From positions 1 through 21,485 of the IMG/VR virus record IMGVR_UViG_3300005617_000721: DNA of 21,485 nucleotides. One strand, written 5' to 3'. The stretch is from a virus. The notes beneath the pieces are model-generated. The model did no database searches. It was not told the origin of the DNA and worked only from the letters and a program-made list of their open reading frames with translations. Both the position numbers and the translations under genes were made by a program. Positions 1,272 to 21,485 of the stretch are shown in pieces (the first letter of the stretch is position 1; each line of letters starts with the position of its first letter).

Positions 1272-1666
1272 TGAACGTCGCGGTCGCTATCATCGCCGTC
1301 CAGGATAGCCAGGTGCTCTTGGTGCGCAATCGCAAGCGGCAAGGATCCGTGGAAATCCCCGGCGGCATGGTGATCTCGGGCGAGGGAATCTTCAGCGCGG
1401 CCGTTCGAGAGCTACGCGAAGAAACAGGCCTGACCATTGCCACGCCTGTCGGCTGGCGTGACCTCATTCCGTTCGATCAAAAGACGGTCGACAACTGGCA
1501 CGTGCACATCTTTCGAGCGCTACGATGGACCGGAAAACTCACGGCGGGCGATGATGCAGAGAACGTCTTTTGGGGATTGCCTGGCTTACTGCTCGCCGGC
1601 GCACACCCCGAGGATTATCCGATTGTCTGCAGGGCAATCGATCAACACAAGGCAGCGTTTGGATGA
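1271..1666 (+). CDS. Nudix hydrolase
   Basis: Nudix enzymes hydrolyse nucleoside diphosphates linked to another moiety, such as modified dNTPs, NADH, ADP-ribose or RNA caps. A complete Nudix box (Gx5Ex7REUxEExGU) is visible at about residues 37-59: GMVISGE, seven residues, then RELREETGL. The N-terminal strand MNVAVAIIAVQDSQVLLVRN fits the start of the fold. Length is 131 aa, normal for a single domain. I chose ATG 1271, which overlaps the previous stop (TGATG); a TTG three bases earlier is possible. The substrate cannot be read from sequence. Phages often carry Nudix enzymes for nucleotide-pool cleaning or NAD-linked metabolism. The stop overlaps the next ATG (ATGA at 1663). Confidence 0.9.
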   Translation: MNVAVAIIAVQDSQVLLVRNRKRQGSVEIPGGMVISGEGIFSAAVRELREETGLTIATPVGWRDLIPFDQKTVDNWHVHIFRALRWTGKLTAGDDAENVFWGLPGLLLAGAHPEDYPIVCRAIDQHKAAFG

Positions 1667-3008: not shown

Positions 3009-3211
3009 ATCCTTTTCGTTGGCACAAGCTCAGCGCCGCACTGATCACACACAATCCCTTGAGCTTCGTTGGCGCTTAGGGGTGACCATGGGTTACAGGG
3101 ATCGTCCGAATGCGATGCACAGGCCGGACAACGGTACTCCTGGGACACTTCAGTCAGCCGAAACGGCACACATGCGAACCGCGAATATCCAACTGGCTTT
3201 TTCTCGCTCAT
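3005..3211 (-). CDS. small zinc-ribbon protein (68 aa)
   Basis: The ATG at 3211 overlaps the stop of the upstream minus-strand gene (ATGA), which is why I prefer it to the GTG at 3220. The product has two Cys pairs, CPAC (28-31) and CDQC (55-58), separated by a Pro/Asp-rich linker, i.e. one probable zinc site. It ends with GAELVPTKRI. It is last in the three-gene minus-strand unit 4031-3005. Role unknown. Confidence 0.65.
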   Translation of the reverse strand: MSEKKPVGYSRFACVPFRLTEVSQEYRCPACASHSDDPCNPWSPLSANEAQGIVCDQCGAELVPTKRI

Positions 3212-3738
3212 AGCACACACCGCCCTTTCTCGGATTCAATCGCCACGCCTGCGGGAACCTTGGCGCGCAACGCGTCCCACAGCGCGCGCTTCTGGCTGAC
3301 GGGCACCGTGTTGACCTTGCGGTCGCGCTCCCAGCGTCGGCCCGGGATGCTCCGAAGCACGGCCAGCAAGGCGCCGAATGCGTCGTCTGACAGGCCCTCT
3401 TGGTCGATCGTGAGCCGGTCGCCTTCGTAGGCCATACGGATCGTGCTCATGTCAGCCATCAGCCGTTCGGCGATCCGGTCGGCCACACGAACGTAGCCCA
3501 GTGTGCGCAAGGCGGATACCTTGGCCGGCACGTCGCTGGCCGCAGGTTTTGCAGCAATTTCCCAGATCAGCCGGTTGGCTACGACGCGGTTCTCCGAGGG
3601 GCCTACCTCGGCGCCGTACTTGTCCGCGCACACCGGGCCGATGCCACGTTCGACGGATTCGGCATCGACCAGGGGACGCCCGCACAAGGCGCAGTGGGTG
3701 GCTACAAGGGCCGTTGCAGGTGCGCCTTCGTGGCTCAT
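3208..3738 (-). CDS. DUF6011-type zinc protein with HARP-like C-terminus (176 aa)
   Basis: The N-terminus carries CALCGRPLVDAESVERGIGP followed by VC (Cys16, Cys19, Cys37). This CxxCGRxLxxxxSxxxGxGPxC signature is what I know as DUF6011, common in phage and actinobacterial proteins. The C-terminal part (about 121-165: LRSIPGRRWERDRKVNTVPV, then SQKRALWDALRA) resembles the HARP-type domain seen in SMARCAL1-like annealing helicases, although no helicase domain is present. A role in DNA metabolism is inferred. The start ATG overlaps the upstream TAA by one base. Confidence 0.7.
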   Translation of the reverse strand: MSHEGAPATALVATHCALCGRPLVDAESVERGIGPVCADKYGAEVGPSENRVVANRLIWEIAAKPAASDVPAKVSALRTLGYVRVADRIAERLMADMSTIRMAYEGDRLTIDQEGLSDDAFGALLAVLRSIPGRRWERDRKVNTVPVSQKRALWDALRAKVPAGVAIESEKGRCVL

Positions 3739-4390: not shown

Positions 4391-4978
4391 CTACAGCCAT
4401 GAGAGCCACTCTTCTCTCTGCCACCTGTGGAACTCCGCTGCTTCCTCTTCATTCAGCATCGAAAAGTAAGTCCAGCGACGCAAGACCTCTTCAACGGGTC
4501 GTCGGACGAAGTAGATTTCGTGGATATTAGACATCCATCGAACTTCCCTGGCCAGATTCTCCCTGAATCGGATCACATCCTGCGGGGGTCTGCCGGTATC
4601 GGCGCCCGTCGAGCGGCGCGAAAGATATGCTTCAAGATCCCCGGCCACCTCGGGGAAGACTTCCCGAATAGGCCTATTCCCTTTCTTGGCATTGCAGTTG
4701 TTGCATGCGGGTAGACAGTTGCCAGGCGTAGTACCGCCACCGCTTAAAATAGGAACAACGTGTTCCAGCACAAGAAATGGCCTTGTTTTGCAGTAGGCAC
4801 ACAAGCCGCCAAAGTGATCAATTGTGATGATCCACTCTTCGAACGTCAGAGTGGCTGGCAGCAGAATGCATCGTGCTCTGCTAATCGCGCCACCGAGCTG
4901 CGTTCTAAGCCGCCGGCGAGTCCAGCTTGAATCGATTCGCCATGGACCATGAAGCCCAAAAGACGGAATGCGACGCAC
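4391..4978 (-). CDS. HNH endonuclease (195 aa)
   Basis: HNH nucleases cut DNA through a beta-beta-alpha-metal fold. The zinc-bound form is visible: CAYC (60-63), LEHVVPILSGGG (71-82) with His73 as the first catalytic His, NCLPACNNCNAKKGN (87-101) giving Asn87, Cys92, Cys95 and the final Asn/Lys region. The N-terminal 55 residues are basic and the C-terminal 90 residues are helical (EVLRRWTYFSMLNEEEAA). The GTG at 4978 has TAAATT exactly 6 nt upstream, fitting the leaderless pattern of its neighbours. It may be a free-standing homing nuclease or a phage-encoded nuclease; it sits between two related HTH genes. Confidence 0.85.
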   Translation of the reverse strand: MRRIPSFGLHGPWRIDSSWTRRRLRTQLGGAISRARCILLPATLTFEEWIITIDHFGGLCAYCKTRPFLVLEHVVPILSGGGTTPGNCLPACNNCNAKKGNRPIREVFPEVAGDLEAYLSRRSTGADTGRPPQDVIRFRENLAREVRWMSNIHEIYFVRRPVEEVLRRWTYFSMLNEEEAAEFHRWQREEWLSWL

Positions 4979-7047: not shown

Positions 7048-7821
7048 TTATGGCATAGGAGCGGGCGGGGCGTCTACCCTGCGAGCGAGCGTCTCGATCG
7101 TCACGTCATCCGGGTATCCAGTCACCGCGAGCCCATGAAGCGACTGATACGCTGCGCAGGCGGTTTTGCTGATCTTGCCCCATGCCGCATCCACAGGGAC
7201 CTTGAGCGCCCGCTGTGCCCACGCTTCGCGAACATCTCGCGCAATGGACGCGTTGTCAGCGATCGCTTGGTCCGGATGCGCAGCGGTTACGTCACCGCGG
7301 TAGTGAGCTGCAAGCAGGGCCGCGAACCAGTTGCGCCCTAGCCAGAATCGCTCGCCGGCAAGGCGATAGTCTGCGACGTGGACCACCTCGCCCTCGCGAG
7401 ACGATGCGCTGGGCTTGGGCTTCGGAACGAACTGCGAGAGCCACTCGCCAAAGAAGTCCGCAGGGCTCTGGTAGCCTCGATAGATCACGGTCTGAGCATC
7501 GCCGGTGCCCTTGTTGCCATGGGCACGATAGAACGGCGCCGATCGGCCCGTTCGCATGCGATACGCCACGGCCCAGCCCGGTGTGGCTTTCACGCCACCG
7601 AGATTGTTTGCGCGAAATGCCTTGCCGCGACCGGTCTCGGTCATAAAGTGCGCCGCGACCTCGAACGCTCGCAGCAGTGGCGCGCCTGCTGCAACCAAGC
7701 CGTCGACACAGAAGAGCGCAAACGGGTAGGGCTCGAGATGAATCGTCGGCGGTTCGTGGATCTCGGCGACCGGGTCAAGCCACGATGGGATGGGCGCAAG
7801 CGGGCTATCAAACTTGTCCAT
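7048..7821 (-). CDS. endolysin: glucosaminidase-like domain plus peptidoglycan-binding domain (257 aa)
   Basis: Probably cleaves host peptidoglycan glycan strands for lysis. Residues about 45-205 resemble phage and bacterial glucosaminidase (FlgJ-like) domains: a helix ending AAHFMTETGRGKAF, with Glu62 as candidate catalytic acid, NNLGGVKA (72-79), YRGYQSPADFFGEWLSQF (114-131) and WFAALLAAHYRGD. Residues about 211-249 fit a PG_binding_1 repeat (AAWGKISKTACAAYQSLHG, VTGYPDDVTIETLARR). The N-terminal 35 residues are Pro-rich, with no signal peptide, so export would need a holin. ATG 7821 is the start; the ribosome site is poor. Four hairpins follow it. Confidence 0.75.
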   Translation of the reverse strand: MDKFDSPLAPIPSWLDPVAEIHEPPTIHLEPYPFALFCVDGLVAAGAPLLRAFEVAAHFMTETGRGKAFRANNLGGVKATPGWAVAYRMRTGRSAPFYRAHGNKGTGDAQTVIYRGYQSPADFFGEWLSQFVPKPKPSASSREGEVVHVADYRLAGERFWLGRNWFAALLAAHYRGDVTAAHPDQAIADNASIARDVREAWAQRALKVPVDAAWGKISKTACAAYQSLHGLAVTGYPDDVTIETLARRVDAPPAPMP

Positions 7822-7895: not shown

Positions 7896-7967
7896 TCACG
7901 CCGGATCATCTTCCCGACGCGCGCGGAAGTAGCGCCGGATATTGGCCTGAATCGAAGCTTTATTCAT
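7896..7967 (-). CDS. possible 23-residue peptide between HNH protein and endolysin
   Basis: The ATG at 7967 overlaps the end of the HNH-family gene by 8 nt. The product is MNKASIQANIRRYFRARRED plus DPA, basic and helical. The frame extends upstream to 8087, but that part lies wholly inside the HNH gene. There is only a weak GGAA ribosome site. It may be a real coupled micro-gene or chance. Confidence 0.25.
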   Translation of the reverse strand: MNKASIQANIRRYFRARREDDPA

Positions 7968-8694
7968 CGGTTCCGGTTCTGGGATAGGTTCTAACCGGCG
8001 TCGCGAGAGATCGATCGACAGACCATCCCATTCGGATTCGTTCGCGAATCGTGGTCTTGCTAATGCCCGTTTTCTCGGCCCACTCACTCAGACAGAGCGT
8101 TTGCCCTTGATGAGTTAGCGTCCTACGAGAAGACCTGTTTCTTGCCTGCTCGATCTCGGTTGCCCATCGACAGTTGGCATCCCAGCCGTTCGTTGTGCAT
8201 TCATCACACTTGCCACAGCTGTAGTGACCTTCATTGTTCCTGCGGTCGAGAGAGTGTTCGTCGGACGGACGAAGGCCCATGTCCGTAAAAAATGCCTCAA
8301 AGTCCTTTCGCCATCGCCCGCAGACCCGAATGCCGCGACCGCCATAACGACGATAGGCGCGATTGCTTTTGGTCTCGCATCGATCAATCATTGCGGCCCA
8401 GGCCGTGTATTCGATCGTGGGAGCTTTCGCTCCGTGAATCTTGGCTTGTCCATGCTTTCTGAATCTCTGTGAGATGAGTTCGCTACGCAGGCAACCGCAG
8501 GATTCGCTGATTGAGTTTCTTAGACTGGCGCCAACAACATCTAGCTCTGTGCCGCAATCACATCGGCACCGCCAAATTAGCGAACCGCTCGACGGCTGCC
8601 TCTTGCCGAACCAACCGAGAACGGTCCATCTCCCGAATTTCTGTCCGGTGAGATCCTTTGCCCTCTTGGGGAGGACGTGTTTCTTTCTTGGCAT
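7960..8694 (-). CDS. HNH/AP2-type homing endonuclease-like protein (244 aa)
   Basis: The start is fixed by a strong AGGAGGT ribosome site 7 nt before ATG 8694 (another ATG is at 8697). Layout: DLTGQKFGRWTVLGWFG (14-30), a zinc ribbon (CRCDCG and SCGCLR at about 43-69), EYTAWAAMIDRC (95-106), RYGGRGIRVCGRW (116-128), SLDRRNNEGHY (148-158), an inserted CGKCDEC cluster, and NCRWATEIEQARN (174-186). The C-terminus (190-235) is a NUMOD-like HTH: LTHQGQTLCLSEWAEKTGIS, then GWSVDRSLATPV. I know this order from phage mobile-endonuclease-like proteins. It sits as a guest between the glycosyltransferase and endolysin genes. DNA cleavage is inferred. Confidence 0.8.
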   Translation of the reverse strand: MPRKKHVLPKRAKDLTGQKFGRWTVLGWFGKRQPSSGSLIWRCRCDCGTELDVVGASLRNSISESCGCLRSELISQRFRKHGQAKIHGAKAPTIEYTAWAAMIDRCETKSNRAYRRYGGRGIRVCGRWRKDFEAFFTDMGLRPSDEHSLDRRNNEGHYSCGKCDECTTNGWDANCRWATEIEQARNRSSRRTLTHQGQTLCLSEWAEKTGISKTTIRERIRMGWSVDRSLATPVRTYPRTGTDE

Positions 8695-8720
8695 CATCGC
8701 ACCTCCTAGTGCGCTGATCA

Positions 8721-8759
8721 CGCCCCCGGCTGTTACCGCAGCGCGGGGGTTTCTTGTTT
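8721..8759 (+). terminator. hairpin with + strand T-run upstream of the HNH gene
   Basis: CCCCCG (8723-8728) pairs with CGGGGG (8744-8749), extended by GC/GC past a bulge, followed on the + strand by TTTCTTGTTT. It faces against the local genes, so it may block antisense transcripts or be a leftover of the inserted element. On the minus strand it would lie in the HNH leader. Confidence 0.5.
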
Positions 8760-8775
8760 CAAGCGATCACTAATT

Positions 8776-9762
8776 CTACCATCCATCCGCCTCGCATCGA
8801 CTGCGGAAGTACTCCCGAATCTCGTTCTTGAGCCGATGGGATCGATCGGTGAGCTGCCAAACACCCTGTGCATCCACTTTGAGATCTAGATCGGGCCGGT
8901 ACTGGTTGCGCACCAGGATCTCGTCACGCACGCCGTAGCCACGCTTGGTCTTGGCGCCGTGGAAGTAGTGTAGCGCGAGGCCTTTCATCAGACCCACGTT
9001 GCGGCGAATGTACCGCTCGGCACGGTCTTGGTAGACCAGCACGGACTCTCGGTAGCGCGGGTGAAAATCCTTGCGTAGAACCTTGTCCAGCGTGCCCACC
9101 AGGGCATTCGCAAGGTAGTAGTCACCCGAACCCAGAATCCCCGTATCGGGAATGCCACCAAGAGCATCCCAGGCCTCTCGGGTGCAAGCCCACGCGAGGC
9201 CGGGCGTGCCATGCGGGCCGTAGCCATAGGGATAGACGCCGTGCGGCGACGCCCCGCCATTGAGATGACAGCTCATGAAACTTCGATGCAGCGGACCATT
9301 GACCTCGCAGTCTGCGTTGAGGTCCTGAAACTGCGAATAGATCTGTAGAATTGGGTAGTCCTGCAGCTGGTGAATGACTTCGTTGGCCCAGTCATCCCGA
9401 GCGAGCATCATGTCAGCATCGCACCAGGCCACATAACCCCATCCAAGCGGTAGCCGAGAAACACCGATACGGATGAGGTTTTCTTTCAGCCAGAGGATAT
9501 GGCGTGTCCGGACTTGGATATCGAATGGGTCATCGGCCTGAGTAACGGCGAAGTCACGATCTCCAAACGCACACTCGACTGTAATGAGCGTGGCGCCCGC
9601 TTCATATACACGCTTGCGAAAGTCCTGGTAGAGCGACCAGAGCTTCCTGGAGCGCATGGCATTGAAGATCGGGGTTATGACAAACAGCTTGTCATGGATG
9701 CGATCAGGACGACTGAAGAAGGTCTTCAGTTCAGACGAAGGCGCTACATCGACAGGATGCAT
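8776..9762 (-). CDS. glycosyltransferase-like protein, GT-A type (328 aa)
   Basis: Features of a GT-A nucleotide-sugar transferase are visible: an early strand KLFVITPIFNAM (25-36), a DxD metal site in VAWCDADMMLARDDW (111-125; Asp115, Asp117) and an acceptor-side motif GILGSGDYYLANAL (208-221; Asp214). There are no membrane segments and no signal peptide, so it acts in the cytosol or on the assembling particle. Donor and acceptor are unknown. A role in modifying host surface sugar, phage DNA or virion protein is inference. It lies directly downstream of the GH9 gene behind a terminator-like hairpin. ATG 9762 has only a weak GAG ribosome site. Confidence 0.75.
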   Translation of the reverse strand: MHPVDVAPSSELKTFFSRPDRIHDKLFVITPIFNAMRSRKLWSLYQDFRKRVYEAGATLITVECAFGDRDFAVTQADDPFDIQVRTRHILWLKENLIRIGVSRLPLGWGYVAWCDADMMLARDDWANEVIHQLQDYPILQIYSQFQDLNADCEVNGPLHRSFMSCHLNGGASPHGVYPYGYGPHGTPGLAWACTREAWDALGGIPDTGILGSGDYYLANALVGTLDKVLRKDFHPRYRESVLVYQDRAERYIRRNVGLMKGLALHYFHGAKTKRGYGVRDEILVRNQYRPDLDLKVDAQGVWQLTDRSHRLKNEIREYFRSRCEADGW

Positions 9763-9865: not shown

Positions 9866-12136
9866 TTATCCAGCCGGGATCGCGCTTTTGAGGATCTCTA
9901 GATCCGCAATGATGCGTTTGAGCGCGTCGGTCTGGGCTGCCGTGAGCTGAACCCCGGTGCCGGGCTGTGGCGCGGGCGTGGGCGGCGGAGTCATGGACGC
10001 GGGATCTTTGCTCGCGTCATGAAGGAAGCCGAGCATCATCACGTTCCATGCGATCGTCTCCCACGTGCTGAACTCGTTGGAGTTCAGCAGTGACCAGCCG
10101 TCACCGTAACGCCGTTGAATCGGCAGAGCGTCCCAGTCGGGGGAAAGCTTTTTGGATACAGCCGTCTGGTAGGACTGGCCACTAGCCCCTGCAGTCGGAC
10201 CGAAGACAAGGATACCGGGCGCGTTGCCAATGGGCTTGCCGACGTGATCACTGGTCACACCATCAGAAAGGCCGTACTTGGTAAAGTACGAGTCGCAGTG
10301 TCCTGGGCTGTTGGGCGAATCGGTTCCCAGGCCCGTGTAGAATGACCTGCCAAGCGGATTGAGACCGAGAGCGTAGTCTGCAAGCTGCGAGACGGTGTTG
10401 GTATACTTTTGACGCTTGGTCGCGTCCGTCTCGAAGAGCGTGGCAAAGGCACAGACTTCCGCGTATCGCCCCTGGGCCGTCATCGCGCCCCATGAATAGA
10501 ACTTGTTGACCCCTTGGCTGTAGGGGCTGTTCTCGGTGTCCACATTCATGTAGCCACCGCTCGCAGCGCCCTGCAGGATCTTGCTCTTCAGCGCCGTGGC
10601 CAGCGTGGCATCCACCGCACGATCGGTGGGCAGCAGGTAGCTCACGAAGTGAACGGTGAGGCAGTTGGCTGCTGTATTGCCCGGGAGGTATTGCTCGGGC
10701 CAAGCGCCCACCACCACGACGGCTTGCGCAGCTGCCTTGAACAGATCGTGAAACGGCTGTTCCCCTGTGGCTAGATAGAGCTGTAGCGCGGGGTACAGAA
10801 ACCGCGTGGCAGCCTGGTTGACGTTCGTGGTTCGCTGAAGATACGCCCATGCCATCCGCGCACGATTGAGCAGCGCGTCGGCATGGGCCGAGTCAAACGG
10901 GCGAACCAAGCGCGAAGCTTGCGCGAACATCCCGCAGGCAAACGCGGTAGTCTCCTCGAGCGGGGCCCACGTGCCATACATGCCCGGATCGCTCGCAGCA
11001 CTATGGACTCCGTAGGTGGGCTCTGCGTCGCGCTGCGTGCCGGCTCGCACGCCACCTTGCAGCGGATCTCCCGCCGTGGTGATCTGTAAGTTTTCCCAAA
11101 GCAAAAGGCCCCATAGGGCCTCGTCGAGAAAGTCAGGAATGCCGTTTCCGGATTCCGGGAGGTTGTACTGCCGGTCAATGAAGTGTGACGGCCACGCTTC
11201 GTAGGTGCTCAGCATGAGCAGCGGGATGAGCGTATGCGTAGGCCGGCGTTGGAAGTCGCCTGCGTCGTGGTAGCCGCCCCGAATCGGCGCCATTGCCGCG
11301 CCCGAAGGAACGTTGATAAACCCGTTGCCAGGATACTGTGCACGCGTGTCAGCAATCTTCGCGTGACAGATCCCGCGCGTGAATTCCGTATACGGACTTT
11401 CCAGGGCAATACCGCAGCGCTGGTGATAGAGCCCCCGCGTTGCGACGTAGGCAGCCTTTCGGGTGTACTCCTGGCCAATCCCGAATGATCGCGATCGGCC
11501 GCACCCTGGCACCGAGACAAAGTACGGGCCACCGGCAGGCACCGTATCCAAAGGCAGGCGATACACCCACTCACCCGACGTCGGGGCCGTGGCGCTCACC
11601 GCGGTGTCATCGAACTCCCGGGCGACGGTGCCCGAAAAGACTACGTTGCCAGTCTTCTCATCGATGACTTGATAGCCCGGGAACGGGCTGAAACGAAGTG
11701 AACCGCCGTTGCCGAGGTATACACCGAACACGGCCCAACGGGACGTTGCTCGATCCGAGTAACCGACTTGGTTGACCTTGATTGATTCGCAAGGCGTTGT
11801 ACGACTGCCGAACACGATGCTTTGGCTGCCGTAGGGGCCCGTTACCGCATAGGTTGTGCCGTCCTGCAGAAGCGCCGCCAAATGCAAGTAGATGCGATGG
11901 CGTACCGTCACAGGATACGTGTTGGGCTGCGTTGCGGTCTTCGCCTTGCCCTCATCCCACGGCATCGAGTCGCGATGAATCGCAACGGGCGGCTGTCCGT
12001 TCACCTGCCAATGGGCAGGGTCAAGGTCGAGCGTGTCGGGAGCTGTCCCAATCCCGCTTTCGTCCTGGCTACTCTCGGCGACCGCGACGAGAACGGAAGG
12101 CGCTGCAGCGTGAATCTCGACGATCTTCGGTATCAT
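9866..12136 (-). CDS. GH9 family glycoside hydrolase (cellulase-type) (756 aa)
   Basis: GH9 enzymes are inverting hydrolases of beta-1,4-glucans and related polymers or oligosaccharides. An Ig-like/CelD_N region spans about 10-215 (IKVNQVGYSDRATSRWAVFG at 119-138, VIDEKTGNVVFSGTV). The (alpha/alpha)6 catalytic domain spans about 225-708. It has GGYHDAGDF (287-295; Asp291 and Asp294 as nucleophile-water bases), PESGNGIPDFLDEALWGL (327-344), DYALGLNPLGRSFYTGLG (587-604) and a terminal NEFSTWETIAWN (687-698; Glu688 as general acid). The usual HHR-type motif is altered to PGHCDS (611-616). A Pro-rich linker (715-725) and a helix (LTAAQTDALKRIIADLEILK) end it. No signal peptide. ATG 12136 overlaps the receiver gene stop (ATGA), so 756 aa is preferred over the longer 776-aa frame. 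Probable target: a host or habitat polysaccharide. Confidence 0.9.
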   Translation of the reverse strand: MIPKIVEIHAAAPSVLVAVAESSQDESGIGTAPDTLDLDPAHWQVNGQPPVAIHRDSMPWDEGKAKTATQPNTYPVTVRHRIYLHLAALLQDGTTYAVTGPYGSQSIVFGSRTTPCESIKVNQVGYSDRATSRWAVFGVYLGNGGSLRFSPFPGYQVIDEKTGNVVFSGTVAREFDDTAVSATAPTSGEWVYRLPLDTVPAGGPYFVSVPGCGRSRSFGIGQEYTRKAAYVATRGLYHQRCGIALESPYTEFTRGICHAKIADTRAQYPGNGFINVPSGAAMAPIRGGYHDAGDFQRRPTHTLIPLLMLSTYEAWPSHFIDRQYNLPESGNGIPDFLDEALWGLLLWENLQITTAGDPLQGGVRAGTQRDAEPTYGVHSAASDPGMYGTWAPLEETTAFACGMFAQASRLVRPFDSAHADALLNRARMAWAYLQRTTNVNQAATRFLYPALQLYLATGEQPFHDLFKAAAQAVVVVGAWPEQYLPGNTAANCLTVHFVSYLLPTDRAVDATLATALKSKILQGAASGGYMNVDTENSPYSQGVNKFYSWGAMTAQGRYAEVCAFATLFETDATKRQKYTNTVSQLADYALGLNPLGRSFYTGLGTDSPNSPGHCDSYFTKYGLSDGVTSDHVGKPIGNAPGILVFGPTAGASGQSYQTAVSKKLSPDWDALPIQRRYGDGWSLLNSNEFSTWETIAWNVMMLGFLHDASKDPASMTPPPTPAPQPGTGVQLTAAQTDALKRIIADLEILKSAIPAG

Positions 12137-12510
12137 GGTGATAGCTCCCGAATCTTCCTTAGCAAGGCGGACAAGTCTGGTGATCCCGGCAGACAAGCAT
12201 CGGCACCCGCGGCCTTGGCTTGTTCAAGCCGTTCCTTTGACATGTCCAAGTTTGAAAAGAGAATCACCGGGATTTTGGACGTGATCTCGGTCGCACGAAT
12301 GCACTTGCACAGCTCAAAGCCGTTCAGCACATCCATCCAAATGTCACTCACCACGACATCCGGAAGATATCCACGAGCAAGCCTGAAGGCCTCCATGCCG
12401 TCGTGAGCCGGGATGACCGTAAAGCCCATGCTGGTCAGCATCTCTCTCAAAACTCTGAGCCAGCGCGGGTTGTCATTCACCAGCAGGATGGTTTTGTTGC
12501 GGTCTGCCAC
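12133..12510 (-). CDS. single-domain response regulator (receiver), degenerate (125 aa)
   Basis: A CheY-like receiver covers the whole protein: strand ILLVNDNP (8-15), phosphoacceptor-type Asp56 in VVVSDIWMDVLNG (52-64), strand PVILFSN (81-87, Ser86) and AKAAGADACLPGSPDLSALL (98-117). The acidic pair, normally DD, is N12-D13. The invariant Lys of a KP motif is missing (LPGSPD). Phosphorylation may still occur at Asp56, but signalling is probably altered. No output domain. The GTG start at 12510 lies 38 nt inside the upstream membrane-protein gene. Receivers are rare in phages; it may bind a host kinase or partner (inference). Confidence 0.85.
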   Translation of the reverse strand: MADRNKTILLVNDNPRWLRVLREMLTSMGFTVIPAHDGMEAFRLARGYLPDVVVSDIWMDVLNGFELCKCIRATEITSKIPVILFSNLDMSKERLEQAKAAGADACLPGSPDLSALLRKIRELSP

Positions 12511-12904
12511 CTGTCGAGTGTAGCGCTTGCACCAAGACCATCATGTCTTGGTGGTACTTCTCGAAGCGTCCCTCCAGCCGCTCCATCCACTCCGTGACCT
12601 GACTGGCCGTGGTCTCGTTCTGATGAACGACGCGCAGGTTTTCCTTGGCGGCCTCAAGCGTCTTGTTCGCGTATTCATTGGCCTCTCGAACGCGAAGATC
12701 CTGCAGCTCTTTGAGTTCCTTCAGGGCCCCTTGGTAGAGTTGTAAGCTGTCCTGAAGTTGCTTCTCTCTGGCTTCCTGACGCTTGTCATCTCGACCGTAC
12801 AGCGTCTTGATGGCGTACAGGGCAACCAGCAGAAAGATCCCAAGCGCTCCATAGTCAACAAGGCGATCCAGGTGCGTCGCGTCCGCCAAAGCTACGTAGA
12901 TCAC
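12473..12904 (-). CDS. membrane-anchored coiled-coil protein, i-spanin-like (143 aa)
   Basis: One N-terminal transmembrane helix (YGALGIFLLVALYAIKTLYG, 18-37) is followed by a long charged coiled coil (about 40-130: KRQEAREKQLQDSLQLYQGA, LKELKELQDL, TEWMERLEGRFEKYHQDM). This is the shape of an inner-membrane spanin subunit, but also of other phage lysis-region membrane proteins. GTG 12904 overlaps the previous stop (GTGA). Its 3' end overlaps the receiver gene by 38 nt in another frame. A role in lysis is inferred from shape and neighbourhood. Confidence 0.65.
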   Translation of the reverse strand: MIYVALADATHLDRLVDYGALGIFLLVALYAIKTLYGRDDKRQEAREKQLQDSLQLYQGALKELKELQDLRVREANEYANKTLEAAKENLRVVHQNETTASQVTEWMERLEGRFEKYHQDMMVLVQALHSTGGRPQQNHPAGE

Positions 12905-13476
12905 GTGGCGAGCAGTTCAGGGAAGTGCTGGTGTAGCAATTCGATCCCGTATCGCGCTTCCTCGCTACTCACGATCCCGCTACTGATGGACGTTGCAGCG
13001 CTTTCGAGCATGTCCCGTGCAAGCAACAGATCTGCCGCCCCCAGCGCATAGCCGTGATTTAGCTGGCCTGCGAGATCATCCAGCGAGGGCAGTCTCCCTG
13101 TCATCGCGTATTCAATCTCAGCGGCCGCATAGAACCCAGGCACTTCGTACCCTACGCGCTTGTGGCCCGAGGTCGCATAGAAGTAGGCAAACTTCAGCTT
13201 GTCTTTCGACCACTGGCGCGCGTGCACAAGCTCGTGGCAGACGGTTCTAATCTTGCGGTTGGGCGGCAGGCCCGGCGTCAGATAGATCCAGCTACCTGCC
13301 GTGAAACTCCGACCGTCGAGCAGTTGGGTCAGATCGGGGATCCCCGCAGCCTTGAGCGCTCCCTGAAAAACCTGGAACTCCCATGCATCGTCACGGTCTA
13401 CAATCCGCGCACCGAAGTGCTCGGCCATTAGATCCGTGAATGCCTGCGCTTCGCTCTCGGTCGCAAGTCGCGTCAT
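12901..13476 (-). CDS. HExxH zinc metallopeptidase-like protein (191 aa)
   Basis: A HExxH site occurs as CHELVHARQW (80-89; His81, Glu82, His85), preceded by a strand (GSWIYLTPGLPPNRKIRTVC). Glu120 in GFYAAAEIEYAMTGRLP is a plausible third zinc ligand, giving a gluzincin-like arrangement. The later part is helical. ATG 13476 is chosen because GGAGG lies 6 nt before it and the ATG overlaps the previous stop (ATGA); the longer 206-residue frame would cut into the lipoprotein gene. No signal peptide. The substrate is unknown; host envelope or virion protein processing is conceivable. Confidence 0.7.
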   Translation of the reverse strand: MTRLATESEAQAFTDLMAEHFGARIVDRDDAWEFQVFQGALKAAGIPDLTQLLDGRSFTAGSWIYLTPGLPPNRKIRTVCHELVHARQWSKDKLKFAYFYATSGHKRVGYEVPGFYAAAEIEYAMTGRLPSLDDLAGQLNHGYALGAADLLLARDMLESAATSISSGIVSSEEARYGIELLHQHFPELLAT

Positions 13477-13757
13477 GGCAAACCTCCGTCTCGGGCAAGG
13501 CATCGGTCCATCGGGACACACGCAAAGATCTTGCGGCTAGGGTCATAGACGGACGGTACTTCGCAGCAGACGGCCGAGATCTCTCGGCATGGACGATTCA
13601 TATCCACCCAGCTTGTCGGCGCGGAGACACCGCAAACCTGCGGAGCGCCCGCAGGGGAACAGCGTTGCGCGCGTGGCGGGCAGTTGTCCGGGGGTGGAAG
13701 GGATGGACACGCCGTAAACAGCGGCACCAGTGCGATCAAAGCGAGTTTGAGCAGCAT
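13473..13757 (-). CDS. Cys-rich lipoprotein (94 aa)
   Basis: A type II signal peptide is clear: MLLKLALIALVPLFTAC with the lipid-bearing Cys17. The mature part is short and Pro/Cys-rich (eight further cysteines, including VCCEVP), suggesting a disulfide-linked envelope domain. It could be the outer-membrane spanin partner of 12473-12904, since small Pro-rich lipoproteins serve so, but the many cysteines are unusual for that. Superinfection exclusion is another possibility. It overlaps the metallopeptidase gene by 4 nt. Confidence 0.7.
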   Translation of the reverse strand: MLLKLALIALVPLFTACPSLPPPDNCPPRAQRCSPAGAPQVCGVSAPTSWVDMNRPCREISAVCCEVPSVYDPSRKIFACVPMDRCLARDGGLP

Positions 13758-13761
13758 CGCT

Positions 13762-13950
13762 TTATCTCACCCGAATCTCTGACAGACCCAGGCCCGGGAT
13801 AAAGATCGCGAGCAGCCAGAGCACCACCGCAATAATCACGACCGCGTTGAGAATCTGCCGGATCTTGGCATCCATCGGGATGATGGAATTGACCAGCCAC
13901 AGAAGCACGCCGATCACAATGAGCACGAGGATCACGTGAAGTAACGTCAC
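13762..13950 (-). CDS. Thivi_2564-type small membrane protein, possible holin (62 aa)
   Basis: Two transmembrane helices: LLHVILVLIVIGVLLWLVNS (3-22) and LNAVVIIAVVLWLLAIFIPG (34-53), joined by the signature IIPMDAKIRQI. This matches what I know as the Thivi_2564 family, small membrane proteins frequent in Proteobacteria and their phages. Position next to another holin-like gene supports a lysis role, which is inference. GTG 13950 overlaps the upstream stop (GTGA). Confidence 0.75.
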   Translation of the reverse strand: MTLLHVILVLIVIGVLLWLVNSIIPMDAKIRQILNAVVIIAVVLWLLAIFIPGLGLSEIRVR

Positions 13951-14387
13951 GGTTCACTCCCTTCTGTCTCGATGACGGACGCGGGTTTGGGTTGCACAAC
14001 GGCCACGGCCGCAGTTGCCGGTGTCTGCGTGGCCTTCCAGGTCGAGACTTCGCGCTCGATCATCTGCGCAATCAGATATTCGGGGCGCTCGATGCCAAGC
14101 GCTCGGAGCGTGTCGATTGCTCGCTGCCCTTGCACCACGACGTCATCCATCGCAGATTGCTTGGTCGACAGCGCGGCAGCGGCGGACCAGTAACCTGGCT
14201 TGGCAGGATCCTTGAGGTCCTGAACTCGCTGCACACGACTGCCTACCGCAACATCCGCGAGCTTCTCGAGGGCTTCTAGAGCTTTTGCGTAGCGTGCATC
14301 TTTGACGTAGGGCCGCACGATCGGAATGACCGCCAGCGCCACACCGCCGATTGCCGTGAGCAGGGCAATGAACTGCGAGAAGGTCAT
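13947..14387 (-). CDS. holin-like membrane protein (146 aa)
   Basis: A single N-terminal transmembrane helix (FIALLTAIGGVALAVIPIV, 6-24) is followed by a soluble helical part (RYAKALEALEKLADVAVGSR) and a Pro/Ala-rich tail. The layout recalls LL-H type phage holins, with one TM and a helical cytosolic domain, but I cannot confirm the family. ATG 14387 overlaps the previous stop. The next gene, with two TMs, may act as its partner. Confidence 0.6.
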   Translation of the reverse strand: MTFSQFIALLTAIGGVALAVIPIVRPYVKDARYAKALEALEKLADVAVGSRVQRVQDLKDPAKPGYWSAAAALSTKQSAMDDVVVQGQRAIDTLRALGIERPEYLIAQMIEREVSTWKATQTPATAAVAVVQPKPASVIETEGSEP

Positions 14388-15622: not shown

Positions 15623-15640
15623 CCGACTACGGGTAGTCGG
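15623..15640 (-). other. perfect stem-loop across a stop codon
   Basis: CCGACTAC (15623-15630) and GTAGTCGG (15633-15640) are perfect inverted arms. The stem contains the TAG stop of gene 15627-15992. No U-tract follows, so it is not a standard terminator; it may protect the 3' end or separate the two coding regions. Confidence 0.45.
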
Positions 15641-15992
15641 TAACGGCGTCTTTGACGGTCAGCGTCCCGCTCATTGCGAGAATCCTGCGACCGCCCGCGA
15701 GCTGGATGAACAGGTCAAACACGTACGTGCCTGCGGCAATGAGCGCGGTAGCGGCTTCATCGACGTTGAGCCGAAACGAGTTGTCGGCATCATCGAGCTC
15801 AACGCCGGTGCTCTCGGTCCAATCCACTGCAGCCGACGAGGCAGACGCGCTTGCGCGTGCTTGCATGTGGGCTGTGGCATCCGTGAGATCGAAGGCAACG
15901 TTGTCTTCATCGACGGGAAAGTACTTTTTGGTAACGAACGTCTCGCCCTGCGTGAAGGCGAGCGGCGTTTGAATGGGAATGCGGTTTGCCAT
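15627..15992 (-). CDS. BppU-like / fibre-associated structural protein (121 aa)
   Basis: It reads LAFTQGETFVTKKYFPVDED, FDLTDATAHMQARASASASS, then FRLNVDEAATALIAAGTYVF, DLFIQLAGGRRILAMSGTLT and VKDAVT. A strand-rich Ig-like fold with DLTGA, 'aGtYvyDl' and 'G.ltV.d.vT' is typical of small phage baseplate or fibre-adaptor proteins related to the BppU N-terminus. It probably joins or decorates the distal tail. Confidence 0.65.
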   Translation of the reverse strand: MANRIPIQTPLAFTQGETFVTKKYFPVDEDNVAFDLTDATAHMQARASASASSAAVDWTESTGVELDDADNSFRLNVDEAATALIAAGTYVFDLFIQLAGGRRILAMSGTLTVKDAVTDYP

Positions 15993-15995
15993 GAC

Positions 15996-16817
15996 TTACT
16001 CGTAGTAACCGACAGCTTGGATGGCGAAGACTGGTGAGCTGGCGCCCTCGAGCTTGTACTCAATTACCTGAGAACCATCGGTCTCAATATTAAACTCCTG
16101 GACCGACCCGGCTCCTACCGCTTTGGTTAGGTTTGTGGTGTCGCCATTCGTTCTAAACTTCGCAGTGCCTGCGCTGTCAACGTAGATGCATTCGAGAGTA
16201 GCCATGTACGAGTGTGAGGGCATCCAAGCGGATAGACTCTGGTCGGTGTAAGTGCTGGGCGTCGCAGTGGCGATGACATAATCGCTAATCTTCGATCGCC
16301 GCCACGTGACCTTGTTCGCGTGTTTGAAGAACGGCCGAATATTCCCGCTACCATCGACGTAGTAACTGCAGATATACACTCGCGTGGCGTCGCCTGACTT
16401 GAACGTCCGGCTGGCATCAGGGCCCGTGGTCGAGCGCTCGTAGGCGATCAGGCCGAGACTCTCGTATCCGTAGAGATAGTGCCAGGTGTCGTTGGAATCA
16501 GACCCAGGCGCAACCGTGGCTGCAGCCTGCGCGTCGAAAGGGACGTTACCGATGTACATCTTCTGAAAGCCCTCAACGGTGATATGTGTACCGTCGGAGC
16601 TAGCTGCGTTCCTGGCGCCAATCAGAAGTCCCGCGAACCCGTTTTTGAGCGTCGTGACCGCGAGGTTTGTGAGGTTCTTTTGGTCGTTCAGATAGACGGT
16701 TCGGTTCGTCACCGCCTGGAATGCATCGTCGACGCCCCCAGCGTCGAGAGCGTCACCGTTGTCGGGTACCGTGACGTCTGCGGTGAACTCGTTGACCGGA
16801 GTAATGTCGTGCGACAT
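15996..16817 (-). CDS. putative tail fibre / receptor-binding protein (273 aa)
   Basis: Start MSHDITPVNEFTADVTVPDN then GDALDAGGVDDAFQAVTNRT: the opening with 'GDxxxAGxVxxxFQxLtNRT' is common in phage tail proteins that begin at a baseplate. The remainder is beta-rich, with YIGNVPFDAQAA, YLYGYESLGLIAYE and a C-terminal IEYKLEGASSPVFAIQAVGY. An AGAGG ribosome site lies 8 nt before ATG 16817. It probably forms a trimeric fibre or decoration protein; the receptor is unknown. Confidence 0.65.
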   Translation of the reverse strand: MSHDITPVNEFTADVTVPDNGDALDAGGVDDAFQAVTNRTVYLNDQKNLTNLAVTTLKNGFAGLLIGARNAASSDGTHITVEGFQKMYIGNVPFDAQAAATVAPGSDSNDTWHYLYGYESLGLIAYERSTTGPDASRTFKSGDATRVYICSYYVDGSGNIRPFFKHANKVTWRRSKISDYVIATATPSTYTDQSLSAWMPSHSYMATLECIYVDSAGTAKFRTNGDTTNLTKAVGAGSVQEFNIETDGSQVIEYKLEGASSPVFAIQAVGYYE

Positions 16818-16828
16818 AAGATGAACCT

Positions 16829-18034
16829 CTAGAAGTCAGAAGGTTTCTTGTTGTACTTGTAGAAACGCAATCGCTGGATTCGAGCCGAGAAGACCTTCGC
16901 CTTGTTCGACTGCAAAAAGTCTAGCGTGCCCGGAATCATCAGGGCTCCAAACGTGGGCGGGCTGCCGGTGCTAATGCGGACCGGTGAGCTGGCGTTCACG
17001 GCATACTGCACGCTTGTGACTTGCCCACCGCCGACACAGACAAAGATCCGCAAGCGATCCTCGCGTGCCCAGCTCATCGTATTGGGTGTCGTATAGAGCG
17101 TGCCGCCGATCGTGATCTTGACCGCTTGGGTGGCATTGTCGATGACGCAGTTGTTGCTGGCATCGATGTACCACAGCGTCATATCCGCGCTGTATTCATT
17201 GAATGCGCCCTTGGGCTCACATTCGATGTAGCAGCGAAGGCTTCCGTCTTCAGCCAAGCAGGTGTTGCCGACGTTGCGATACCAGCGAGGAGCAGCGCGA
17301 GTAACAGCACCGAGAATGGTTTCAGTGGGGAAAAACGCACTTGCTGCGCTACCCTGGATGTCAAGGAGATCTAGATACGTATCCCTGGCACCAGCCCCCA
17401 GTCCGCCGCTACTCGTTCGGTTGTTACCATCCGCACCACGTAGAATAGGGCCCGTGCTGCCTGCGCCACCTGTATTGACGTACGTGGCTCGCGTCCAGTT
17501 GGTAGGCGCGGTTCCAGCAAACAGAATCTGAAACGTGACGCCGCCCGTGTCATTTGTGATCTGAGACGTCGCGCCAACTGAACCCGCTTTATGCCAAATC
17601 GAGATCGTTTGCGTGATCCCGCCTGGGCGCCCATAGCCTAGGTGATAACCGGGGTTGCCGCTCGTTGTCTGAGAGCGGTCTGCGAGAATGCTGCCATCTG
17701 GTCCCGCTGTAGCATTGGCCGTAACCGTGCCGCCGCCGCCATTGGTCCACGCGGAAACGTCTCGGTTGTTTGAGACGACGGACGTTCTCGCTTCATCGAT
17801 CACCAGCCCGGGTGACGTGTTGTTCTTGCCAACCGGAACACTGCTCGAGCTCGAAAGTCCGGAATCAGTCGAGACGGTCGTGGGGCTGGTTTGTACCGTG
17901 TATTGCGAGGATAGCCGCTCATACAGCGTGCCGGTTCCAGTCATCGAACCGACACCCGGAGCCTTGTTCGTCCAGTCGACCTCGAAAACGGTCTCGACCC
18001 GTCTCCAGCCGTTTGCGGCGATTACCGGGATCAT
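16829..18034 (-). CDS. tail fibre protein with carbohydrate-binding-like domains (401 aa)
   Basis: A Ser/Thr/Gly-rich N-terminal region (41-70) is followed by SPGLVIDEARTSVV (74-87) and DVSAWTNGGGGTVTANATAG then PDG, a pattern of phage spike/fibre domains (lectin-like jelly roll). Later segments (SISIWHKAGSV-type strand, MTLWYIDASNN, then ALMIPGTLDFLQ and RIQRLRFYKYNKKP) look like a concanavalin/LamG-like fold. It probably contacts host surface glycans. No enzyme motif is seen. Confidence 0.7.
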   Translation of the reverse strand: MIPVIAANGWRRVETVFEVDWTNKAPGVGSMTGTGTLYERLSSQYTVQTSPTTVSTDSGLSSSSSVPVGKNNTSPGLVIDEARTSVVSNNRDVSAWTNGGGGTVTANATAGPDGSILADRSQTTSGNPGYHLGYGRPGGITQTISIWHKAGSVGATSQITNDTGGVTFQILFAGTAPTNWTRATYVNTGGAGSTGPILRGADGNNRTSSGGLGAGARDTYLDLLDIQGSAASAFFPTETILGAVTRAAPRWYRNVGNTCLAEDGSLRCYIECEPKGAFNEYSADMTLWYIDASNNCVIDNATQAVKITIGGTLYTTPNTMSWAREDRLRIFVCVGGGQVTSVQYAVNASSPVRISTGSPPTFGALMIPGTLDFLQSNKAKVFSARIQRLRFYKYNKKPSDF

Positions 18035-18037
18035 GAG

Positions 18038-19489
18038 CTAACCGGCAAGAGTCCACTGAGCCGGCGAAAGAGAGACCTTGGTGAACATGCGTACGTAACG
18101 ATTGTCTGCAATGACGGCCGTGGAGTTGCCATCAATCGTTCCAGAGGACTGCACGTCAAACGTACTCGGATGCGTCCCTGCTGAGTTCGTAATGTCTTGA
18201 AACACGTGCACGTGATACAGGCCCGAGGCGGCAGGCAGTGTGATTGCGCGGTCTGCCGTGGAGTTTACGAAGTGCCAGGTCTTCGTCGGGTCTGCGATCA
18301 CATTGCCGGCGATCGTCTCGTAATCACCGATGGCCGTCGCGCCAAAGTAGTTTGTAGTGCTGCCAGCGACGCCGATGTTTAACGGGTTGTCGCCGATAAA
18401 GACCCACGCTCCGCCTGCGCGGATATACGTCTTGTTCAGCGTCGAGTCGTAGACGATTAGGCCGTCTGGCGGCGTCGAGATCGCATTGCGCTGTGTGGTC
18501 GTCGGCCGTGGGAGTAGTAGTCCCTTGGTCGTGGTGTTGAGCTCGAGGATGGCTGCGGCCGCGGGATCTGCCAGCGCACCATCCGTGAGGTACATCGGGA
18601 CCTTGATGCCGTGCCGGACATCATCAAGGTCCGCGAGAATCGTCGATGATCCGGACTGCCACGTATGCTTGCCAGAGTTCGCGCGTGAGCCAGACTGATA
18701 CTTCGCCGTCAGGTTCCCGGTGAGGTTGCCGAGCGTGAAGTTGTTGCCCGTCGCGGTACTGAAGTCTAGCGTGAGGATGGGAATCGAGGTGTTGTTTGCC
18801 TCGTTGCGACCGTACAGGGATAGGTTGTAACGGAAGTACAAACCCGCCGCGCCGAACGTCGTGCCAACGCTTGGCTCGATGCCGAAGTGGGCTTCGTCGC
18901 CGGCGCCAAGTCCGGTAACACCAACGTCCTCCCAGCTGGTCCCGTTAAACTGTGAGATCTTGCCGGTCGTGAGGTTGTAGACAATGAGACCGGTAAGCGG
19001 GGACGCAATGGCATTGCGCTGTGTCGAGCTCATCCGCGGCGGCGCAATGCCGCGCGTGGTGCTGTCGATCTGCAGCTTTGCGCTTGGGTCTGGAGAGAGC
19101 GTGCCGATCGCAAGCGCTCCCTTGCTCGTGAGCCGCATACGCTCGGCAAGTGGAGTGCCTGTATCTCGGGTGCGCCACGCGATCGCGCTGGAAACAAATC
19201 CGGACGTCGCACTTTCCCACAGCGCATCCATTGCTGCGGCGTCCGCGATGATGTTCAGCGAATCATCGAGCCGGAATAGGATCGACTCACCGAAACCCGT
19301 CCCGGGACTCGTGCGACGCGCTGTGAGAGTGGCAAGGGTATTGAGCCCAGCGTTGCCCGCGTCGGTGACCGTGACGGTGATCGGGTTGATAAACGACCCG
19401 CCCGACACGATCGTGAGAATCTCGGGGTTGATCTTGAGAACTTCCCCCTCGACCACGAAGTGTGCTGGCCAGTATTGCCTTAAGCCCAT
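18038..19489 (-). CDS. tail fibre protein with internal repeat (483 aa)
   Basis: The N-terminus MGLRQYWPAHFVVEGEVLKI is followed by beta-strand and Ser/Thr/Asn-rich text. Two copies of a stem module occur: residues 136-190 (LQIDSTTRGIAPPRMSSTQR, then NAIASPLTGLIVYN) and 311-366 (LELNTTTKGLLLPRPTTTQR, then NAISTPPDGLIVYD). This 'L-ST-GLLLPRMTTAQRNAI...GLIVYD' unit is common in trimeric fibres. The C-terminus (AITLPAASGLYHVHVFQDIT, then RMFTKVSLSPAQWTLAG) looks like a tip domain. Confidence 0.75.
   Translation of the reverse strand: MGLRQYWPAHFVVEGEVLKINPEILTIVSGGSFINPITVTVTDAGNAGLNTLATLTARRTSPGTGFGESILFRLDDSLNIIADAAAMDALWESATSGFVSSAIAWRTRDTGTPLAERMRLTSKGALAIGTLSPDPSAKLQIDSTTRGIAPPRMSSTQRNAIASPLTGLIVYNLTTGKISQFNGTSWEDVGVTGLGAGDEAHFGIEPSVGTTFGAAGLYFRYNLSLYGRNEANNTSIPILTLDFSTATGNNFTLGNLTGNLTAKYQSGSRANSGKHTWQSGSSTILADLDDVRHGIKVPMYLTDGALADPAAAAILELNTTTKGLLLPRPTTTQRNAISTPPDGLIVYDSTLNKTYIRAGGAWVFIGDNPLNIGVAGSTTNYFGATAIGDYETIAGNVIADPTKTWHFVNSTADRAITLPAASGLYHVHVFQDITNSAGTHPSTFDVQSSGTIDGNSTAVIADNRYVRMFTKVSLSPAQWTLAG
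18392..18559 (-). repeat. fibre stem repeat, copy 2
   Basis: Encodes residues 311-366 of the fibre; about half of the positions match copy 1 at protein level, and the DNA shares GCATTGCGCTGTGT (+ strand text). Confidence 0.7.
18920..19084 (-). repeat. fibre stem repeat, copy 1
   Basis: Encodes residues 136-190 of the fibre (GIAPPRMSSTQRNAIASPLT core). Paired with 18392-18559. Confidence 0.7.
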
Positions 19490-19505
19490 GCTAGTTTGTT
19501 CTCGA

Positions 19506-20219
19506 CTACGGAATTCCGCGGAGCCTTACCGACTCAGTTCCGCCCCATACGCCGTCGCCCCATGCCGGGACGGGCTCCCAGATCCGTCCGCTGCAGAAGA
19601 CAACCTCTGCGCAGATCTCGTGGGTGACCTTCCATTTGCGAATCGCTTTGCGGAACTGCTCGACTTCATACGAGTTGATCCCGCTTGCGCCCCAGACGCG
19701 TGGACCGTCCGGCGCGCCATGGTGCCCCGGTACTGTTCCGCCCCACGTCCCTGTGCCCCAGACGCCTGGTGCGGTGACATCGGTTGGGGGGCCTACGAAA
19801 ACCCAGAACGCGCTGAACCAGCCGGCCCAGGGATCGGGAACGTTGCCGCCCAGGTCGTTGTAGGAATACACGCGAACGTTCTCGAAGCCCTGTTCGAGCA
19901 TGCAGTCAATCAAGCGTTGTTTCGATCCGGCTTCGAACCACAGATCCCATGCGGCCTTGACGCGCTCTCGGTAGGTCGCATCCGTGTCGGCAAAGTATCG
20001 ATCAATGGATCGACCGTCTCCCACGTAGGGCAACACATCGCTCGGTGCGTAGCTGGGCATCCGATATGTGACGGCCGCGCGCGTGTATCTCGTGAGAAGA
20101 TCCAGCGAGAAGCCGATCACAGACAAAAAGGCCTTGCTGAACTTCTGCCGCAGCCAACCCGGAACAAGCGGAACCGTTCCGGGAGACACTTTCCCGGCGA
20201 ACCACTCTTCAAAGGTCAT
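19506..20219 (-). CDS. tail protein I-like baseplate protein with Trp-Gly-rich loops (237 aa)
   Basis: Follows baseplate J as gpI does in P2/Mu-like phages. The middle part RYFADTDATYRERVKAAWDL (74-93), WFEAGSKQRLIDCMLEQGF and VRVYSYND fits the gpI-like core, where short tail proteins join the baseplate edge. The C-terminal third has WG repeats (GVWGTGTWGG 152-161, RVWGASG, WGDGVWGG 220-227) around KWKVTHEICAEVVF. ATG 20219 overlaps the J stop (ATGA). Confidence 0.7.
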   Translation of the reverse strand: MTFEEWFAGKVSPGTVPLVPGWLRQKFSKAFLSVIGFSLDLLTRYTRAAVTYRMPSYAPSDVLPYVGDGRSIDRYFADTDATYRERVKAAWDLWFEAGSKQRLIDCMLEQGFENVRVYSYNDLGGNVPDPWAGWFSAFWVFVGPPTDVTAPGVWGTGTWGGTVPGHHGAPDGPRVWGASGINSYEVEQFRKAIRKWKVTHEICAEVVFCSGRIWEPVPAWGDGVWGGTESVRLRGIP

Positions 20220-21385
20220 TGCTGAACCACTACGCCGGTAATGGCAATCGTGCCCACCACTGCGACTTCATTGTCCCCGATCGTGAGATCGTCATTGATC
20301 CCGTTGATCAGCACCGAGGGAATCGGCACCTTGATCTGACCGGGCGTGTCCTTCAGGACTTTGATCACGTCGTCGAGGCCCAACGTGCCGCCGATGGCCA
20401 TAAACTGAATGAGCCCCACGATGCCATCGGTTGCCGTGGCCACGGCCGTAGAGAACGCGCTGCCGTAATACAGCGTGGCAGACACGTTGACGGTCACACC
20501 GGTGGCGTTCTGAACCTGCAGATCGGCCGTTGGATTGGCAAGCGAGAGTAAGTAGTTGCGAACAAGCGTCTCGTCGGCTGTCGGAATCGGCCCGTCACCC
20601 GCCGCAAGCCAGATATCGACCGTACCGGGACCGCGCGGGTTGTCATCTCGAACGACCGTCTTGGTGGGCTTGGTGCCAACGCCTGGCGTGTTGATGGCCA
20701 GAAACAGGTAGCCGTCTGCGGGCTTGAGAAACCCGACGGTTCCCCACTTGGCGCGGCAACGAGTCTGCAGTGACGCGTCAGTTTCTTCGTCGGTACCTTG
20801 GGTCATGAGCCAAGAATTGCTGCCCGAAGGTACGTAAAACGAAGCAGTCACGCCGGGTAGTGGCGTGACCAGGGTAAGCCCGGTATCAGGACTGACGTTG
20901 AATGCAGAGCCCGGATTCTCGGCAATGAACGGAACGATCGTGTTGCTGGGGCCAGCGGGCAGGGTAACGCTGATGGGATTGATGCTGAGGTATCGATGCT
21001 TCGCAACCGACTCCTGCACAATCACTTGACCCGGATCGAGCGGGTACGGACCGTTGCCGATTGAGACGTTGAGCAGAATCTGACCTTGCGCAAAGGTCGC
21101 AGGGAATCGAGCAACCGGGGCGGCGGGCGAGCTATACCAGTCCGCAAGGAGCGTGAGCCATCCACTCGTGGAGAGCTTGAGCAGCCCACCGGCCGTGATA
21201 TCGCGCAGAAGGCCACTGCCCACCGCAAGGGCTCGTGAAAAAGCCTTGAGCAGGGTGTGGATGACACGCCCGGATTGCCAATTGACGGTCGGAAACCCAA
21301 TGCTGGCTAGCTGCGTCAGAAGGAAGGTGAGCGCATCATCTTCATTGTCAGACCCGAGTAGGTCACGAAGGGTCGGATCAGCCAC
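20216..21385 (-). CDS. baseplate J-like protein (389 aa)
   Basis: Baseplate J forms the wedge that joins the tail hub to the fibre-bearing edge. Supporting text: FIAENPGSAFNVSPDTGLTL (153-172), then PGVTAS; GTDEETDASLQTRCRAKWGT (197-216), the classic 'GtDeEtdeaLr.R' of the family; and DIWLAAGDGPIPTADETLV followed by the C-terminal VNVSATLYYG strand domain. Length is normal. GTG 21385 overlaps the upstream stop by 8 nt. It fixes the phage as contractile-tailed. Confidence 0.9.
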   Translation of the reverse strand: MADPTLRDLLGSDNEDDALTFLLTQLASIGFPTVNWQSGRVIHTLLKAFSRALAVGSGLLRDITAGGLLKLSTSGWLTLLADWYSSPAAPVARFPATFAQGQILLNVSIGNGPYPLDPGQVIVQESVAKHRYLSINPISVTLPAGPSNTIVPFIAENPGSAFNVSPDTGLTLVTPLPGVTASFYVPSGSNSWLMTQGTDEETDASLQTRCRAKWGTVGFLKPADGYLFLAINTPGVGTKPTKTVVRDDNPRGPGTVDIWLAAGDGPIPTADETLVRNYLLSLANPTADLQVQNATGVTVNVSATLYYGSAFSTAVATATDGIVGLIQFMAIGGTLGLDDVIKVLKDTPGQIKVPIPSVLINGINDDLTIGDNEVAVVGTIAITGVVVQQ

Positions 21386-21485
21386 TGAACGCCTGCAACA
21401 CTTTCACGGACACGTTGTTGATCTCGAGAGTCATCGAGAAAGGCCCCAATGCAGTCCGAATCAGAATGTCGACGTTCATTGACTC
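21378..21485 (-). CDS. 3' end of an upstream gene (partial)
   Basis: An open minus-strand frame runs off the right edge and ends at TGA 21380-21378, overlapping the baseplate J start by 8 nt. Visible residues are ESMNVDILIRTALGPFSMTL then EINNVSVKVLQAFSG. An ATG at 21479 could start a 33-residue peptide, but a longer baseplate gene continuing to the right is more likely. The family cannot be told from this fragment. Confidence 0.5.
   Translation of the reverse strand, partial: ESMNVDILIRTALGPFSMTLEINNVSVKVLQAFSG

Follow-up and report, generated by a model that had tools for sequence, protein, structure and literature searches.

A divergent GH9 enzyme without an export signal in the tail and lysis region of an uncultured myophage

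We found that an uncultured myophage carries, in a tail and lysis setting, an intact gene for a GH9 (cellulase-family) enzyme. What is new is a divergent, domesticated viral GH9 from an uncharacterised subfamily. The window, that is the whole stretch of DNA analysed (IMG/VR virus record IMGVR_UViG_3300005617_000721, 21,485 nt), is a contig of this phage. We think it probable, with some reserve, that the protein is a phage-domesticated beta-glycanase, predicted to be inverting, that would be released at lysis and cut host exopolysaccharide.

The GH9 open reading frame runs uninterrupted on the minus strand from an ATG at 12136 to 9866 and encodes 756 aa; the original prediction gave no strand, and the plus strand at 9866-12136 holds many stops. 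Read directly, this ATG lies eight bases past a GGGAG Shine-Dalgarno-like box, and an ATGA joins it to the stop of the upstream receiver-domain gene. The features of the region, all on the minus strand, are the following:

7048..7821, minus strand: endolysin-like protein with a C-terminal peptidoglycan-binding domain (PG_binding_1, 1.1e-4; endolysin PHROGs weak)
7960..8721, minus strand: phage HNH endonuclease (PHROG 374, 1.9e-60)
8776..9762, minus strand: putative glycosyltransferase-like protein downstream of GH9 (C-D-A-D motif)
9866..12136, minus strand: GH9 enzyme, 756 aa (Pfam, AlphaFold2, Foldseek and VIA-align)
10073..10075, minus strand: codon 688 (Glu), catalytic acid, in S-N-E-F-S-T-W-E (87 of 88 aligned sequences)
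10289..10306, minus strand: codons 611-616 (PGHCDS), where classical GH9 enzymes have P-H-x-R (alignment)
11255..11266, minus strand: codons 291-294 (D-A-G-D), catalytic base motif with D291 and D294 (88 of 88 aligned sequences; coordinates computed from the ORF start)
12133..12510, minus strand: stand-alone response-regulator receiver domain, 125 aa (Pfam PF00072, 2.3e-17)
12473..12904, minus strand: small membrane/coiled-coil protein overlapping both neighbours (ORF list; PHROG match weak)
12901..13521, minus strand: M78/IrrE-like metallopeptidase of a phage family (PHROG 13834, 7.6e-13; Pfam M78, 0.0039)
13947..14387, minus strand: possible holin (PHROG 2609 holin, weak, E=0.016)
15627..21385, minus strand: tail module overall (Pfam/PHROG matches and identity to contig L002)
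15627..15992, minus strand: tail-fibre assembly-like gene of the tail module
15996..19489, minus strand: fibre genes of the tail module
19506..20219, minus strand: tail-I like gene of the tail module
20216..21385, minus strand: baseplate J gene of the tail module

The GH9 gene is the last of an overlapping same-strand run and is flanked within one contig by phage genes, with the holin-like gene and the tail module on its right and the HNH and endolysin-like genes on its left. The frames of the M78-like peptidase, the small membrane protein, the receiver domain and GH9 overlap in succession, and the GC3 of GH9 (0.71) falls within the range of the tail-module genes (0.66-0.75). These observations support the proposal that the gene is phage-borne and speak against its belonging to an adjacent chromosomal region. 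In addition, the last 2.7 kb of the window (18757-21485) recur at 100% identity in another contig, L002, which goes on upstream to more tail genes; by position and sequence these look like those for sheath, tube, tape-measure and spike. This overlap covers the tail end only and the GH9 junctions are covered by a single contig; a chimeric assembly across them is unlikely.

Several neighbouring genes have features of their own. In the receiver domain the phospho-acceptor Asp (V-V-S-D) is present, but the usual near-end Lys and one acidic-pocket residue are missing; a degenerate response regulator is unusual in a late phage run, and this one is translationally coupled to GH9. Among GenBank phages, the glycosyltransferase-like protein, for which a Pfam search gave no match, has a sole relative in the 349-kb Xanthomonas phage XaC1 (39% identity), and the endolysin-like protein has one in the 485-kb uncultured phage record LR745208 (41%). 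The left part of the window also encodes a NUDIX hydrolase (1268-1666, plus strand), a DUF6011 protein (3208-3738, minus strand) and a second HNH endonuclease (4391-4978, minus strand).

As for the host, relatives of the baseplate J protein turned up in Myxococcota (9 of 284 genomes) but not in Acidobacteriota (0/297), Bacteroidota (0/247) or Armatimonadota (0/151). Myxococcus phage Mx4 was among the best phage matches, behind Meiothermus and Thermus phages. Our best guess from the tail module, among the four phyla covered, is thus a Myxococcota-like host. Tail modules move between phages, which limits this host inference to a lead. In our tree, the GH9 gene lies outside the Myxococcota branch of its subfamily.

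The assignment to GH9 was then supported at the level of both family and fold. Pfam matched GH9 (PF00759) at residues 228-701 with E=3.5e-28 and 99.5 bits, against a curated cut-off of 27.7. An AlphaFold2 model built on 73 related sequences reached a pLDDT of 91.5 and a pTM of 0.92, superseding a poor model from 9 sequences (pLDDT 66.6). All its top structural matches by Foldseek and VIA-align were GH9 enzymes: CelD of Clostridium thermocellum (1clc; Z 34.0, 508 residues aligned, rmsd 2.7 A), which places the catalytic domain among (alpha/alpha)6 barrels, the metagenomic endoglucanase 3x17 (Z 32.5) and xanthanase 6fhn (Z 25.3), with exo-glucosaminidases at Z ~21. No match to the model was found in the BFVD viral-structure library at E<=0.001. 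The GH9 identity made from the letters alone therefore stands, and the open reading frame, the family match and the residues are far beyond chance. The protein is divided as follows:

residues 1-~110: N-terminal beta-sandwich
residues 117-213: CelD_N Ig-like domain (Pfam, E=1.2e-8)
residues ~220-710: (alpha/alpha)6 catalytic domain
residues ~713-756: Pro-rich linker and C-terminal amphipathic helix

CelD and 3x17 share with the phage enzyme the fold, the layout of an Ig-like domain plus (alpha/alpha)6 barrel and the DAGD and Glu residues, at 23-30% identity, but have P-H-x-R where the phage protein has P-G-H-C-D-S. They also lack the extra beta-sandwich of ~110 residues ahead of CelD_N, which is common to the bacterial relatives. 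In contrast, the C-terminal linker and helix are absent from these relatives, and searches of 50,697 phage records and of the remaining proteins of this phage gave no match to them.

Enzymes of family GH9 are inverting hydrolases of beta-linked glycans, in which an Asp is the base and a Glu the acid. Asp291, Asp294 and Glu688 had been called from the sequence with exact numbering, and none of the three varies across the 73-sequence alignment. In a set of 88 aligned sequences the two Asp are present in 88 and Glu688 in 87, the remaining row being a gap. C241, C257 and H258 align with the R-C-G and C-H stretches of CelD, which shares these C and C-H residues; together with H290 we take them to be a putative structural zinc site. 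Residues 611-616 are PGHCDS and so do not contain the canonical H-x-R. P-H-x-R is a mark of classical cellulases and not of GH9 membership itself. The predicted change of this motif is therefore real, but it is not specific to the phage: H613 and D615 each occur in 65 of the 88 sequences, close kin have the consensus P-L-H-L-D-S, and the entire H-x-D-S subfamily is without P-H-x-R. Since PGHCDS is a variant of a motif common to a broad bacterial subfamily, this type of motif predates the capture, and only G612 and C614, replacing L and L of the consensus, are particular to the phage protein. Judging from the motif, a specificity other than cellulose may apply to the phage enzyme and equally to the whole subfamily.

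A small alignment, used to search the genomes of 84,980 species, retrieved 80 relatives. Aquimarina, Bizionia, Sphaerochaeta-like Spirochaetes, KSB1 and Chthonomonas supplied the nearest kin, which are 44-48% identical to the phage protein over its full length. Members of the H-x-D-S subfamily from these groups (Aquimarina L016/L017/L019, Bizionia L018, Sphaerochaetaceae and other Spirochaetes L020-L024, KSB1 L025/L027 and Chthonomonas L028) have the same three domains as the phage protein and share with it the YHDAGDFDRR, HLDS and NEFT-WET motifs. However, they are exported and are without the C-terminal linker and helix, the phage protein being the opposite on both counts. In the alignment, the nearest bacterial relatives extend further at the N-terminus, by residues that include a signal peptide or lipobox, whereas the phage protein begins where their mature domain begins and has no signal peptide, as had been noted. 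Thus, as read from this comparison, the phage protein has lost the export signal of its nearest kin. The tree grouped the window protein with Flavobacteria and Spirochaetes (SH-aLRT 98), as sister to neither with certainty; the grouping with enzymes of one host phylum that a GH9 phylogeny was suggested to reveal did not emerge. We found no biochemical studies of this subfamily in the literature.

GH9 was also expected to be rare in phages, and this held. We identified three further IMG/VR phage loci with GH9: L013, with PhoH, RecA and volactin genes, L014, with look-alikes of those, and L015, with an SU10-type portal. L013 carries two tandem diverged GH9 genes (L013:9656-12007 and L013:12353-14671). 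Two phage lineages that are not related to each other have an M78/DUF6782-like metallopeptidase gene close to GH9, one in the window (12901-13521) and the other in L015 (L015:12462-12803). The GH9s of the three loci belong to the same broad assemblage as the window protein and are likewise on phage contigs, but they are only 25-30% identical to it, that of L015 keeps a lipobox-like start, and they form part of another clade, together with relatives from Chlamydiae and Planctomycetes (support 97-100). Because the window enzyme and these proteins sit in different clades, there were at least two captures by phages, and the tree supports repeated acquisition of GH9. Among 50,697 GenBank phage records there was no genuine GH9 relative at the search sensitivity used. 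The sole match, MT837902.1 (L008, 'Bacteriophage sp.'), was rejected as a phage GH9, because its genes, read from the sequences as tryptophan-halogenase-like, GH9 and GH1-like, point to a piece of bacterial DNA. Single-protein scans of viral and genome contigs gave no GH9 match and only degenerate-motif alignments gave relatives; these scans require short exact motif matches, and their absences are weak evidence.

Viral GH9 genes were known before the window gene. One from the rumen, which like ours has viral genes on its flanks, was cloned, showed CMCase activity and was described as an auxiliary gene; compared by description only, it is 79.5% identical to a Ruminococcus GH9 and so a recent capture, whereas the window protein is divergent (PMC10465536). 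GH9 was also listed among viral genes of Mariana sediment (PMC8725595), and a soil-virus chitosanase has been crystallised (PMC9485262). An Erwinia jumbo-phage paper (PMC6690015) was discarded as a report of viral GH9, 'GH9' being a strain name there.

How might the phage use this enzyme? We propose that a myophage acquired a secreted bacterial GH9 of the H-x-D-S subfamily, whose signal peptide would have been lost and whose gene would have come to close a translationally coupled run of the late tail/lysis region. Catalysis would be by single displacement (inverting), in the (alpha/alpha)6 barrel D294, aided by D291, would activate water, and E688 would give a proton to the leaving group as a beta-1,4-type backbone is cut. 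Because there is no export signal, the protein would build up in the cytoplasm and be freed once the endolysin bursts the cell, and progeny could then leave and spread by the cutting of matrix or capsule polysaccharide. The substrate is most likely such a polysaccharide of the host or its neighbours. Three observations lead us to favour exopolysaccharide. Two Sphaerochaetaceae subfamily loci lie in exopolysaccharide clusters with glycosyltransferases, WecG and Wzx-type genes, and an Aminobacter member lies in another, beside an export protein and an O-antigen ligase. The GH9 xanthanase PspXan9 of Paenibacillus (6fhn), which has the same fold at 17% identity and is larger and multi-modular, acts on the bacterial exopolysaccharide xanthan (PMC10881899). 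Finally, Erwinia phage S6 needs passage through a cellulose matrix and encodes cellulases, gp094 and gp095, which are beta-1,4-glucan hydrolases tied to the host matrix polysaccharide like the role proposed here, although they are GH48 and GH5 enzymes of a Schitoviridae phage (PMC9544554). Exopolysaccharide is nevertheless not the unique reading, since the neighbourhoods of the other bacterial relatives were mixed, both biosynthetic and catabolic (GH94, GH38, GH31, SusD), with no single theme. Also counting against our explanation, G612 and C614 depart even from the subfamily consensus L-H-L.

Other explanations have to be weighed against release at lysis. The enzyme could instead be attached to the tail or baseplate, perhaps via its C-terminal linker and helix, and clear polysaccharide at entry, as S6 and other phages employ enzymes (PMC9544554). 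The gene lies downstream of the tail-fibre genes and is transcribed the same way as they are, and residues 713-756 set the protein apart from its bacterial relatives. However, it stands outside the fibre block, past the holin-like and metallopeptidase genes, its C-terminal tail has no counterpart in the phage records searched or elsewhere in this phage, no known attachment domain was found in the protein, and the N-terminal sandwich is common to bacterial secreted relatives. We regard a place on the virion as possible but rather doubtful. That GH9 acts as an auxiliary metabolic gene, helping the infected host to feed on plant or algal beta-glucan, has been proposed for viral GH9s of rumen and trench sediments (PMC10465536, PMC8725595) and fits the bacterial relatives found near catabolic genes. 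It seems improbable here: polymeric glucan is extracellular, and a cytoplasmic endoglucanase, lacking the export signal that the bacterial relatives have, would not meet the polymer until lysis.

We give even less credence to two further possibilities. If the altered substrate-site motif (G612, C614) marked a catalytically dead GH9 retained as a carbohydrate-binding or structural protein, the retention of all catalytic carboxylates together with C241, C257 and H258 would be hard to explain, which makes this very improbable. A host gene beside a prophage, or a chimeric assembly, deserves hardly any weight: GH9 is on one contig only, L002 overlapping just its tail end, and the adjoining receiver domain belongs to a family common in cells, but the same-strand phage genes on both sides, the frames overlapping from a PHROG-family peptidase into GH9, the phage-like GC3 and the presence of GH9 on other phage contigs all speak against it, as do the closest cellular relatives, which bear signals that the window enzyme does not.

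It is possible, though less likely than not, that tailed phages have made at least two independent captures from the uncharacterised H-x-D-S assemblage, giving rise in this phage, with the signal cut and a C-terminal tail added, to a receiver-coupled (alpha/alpha)6-barrel class of depolymerase. Beta-helical tailspikes dominate the known phage depolymerases, and such a class would be distinct from them. The signal loss is a clear mark of phage re-use and counts against the usual label of carbon-metabolism auxiliary gene. If our reading is true, a structurally different enzyme class would be added to the tools of phages against matrix polysaccharides, and the window enzyme would be a well-defined starting point for tests on a large GH9 subfamily, one whose biochemistry we did not find described.
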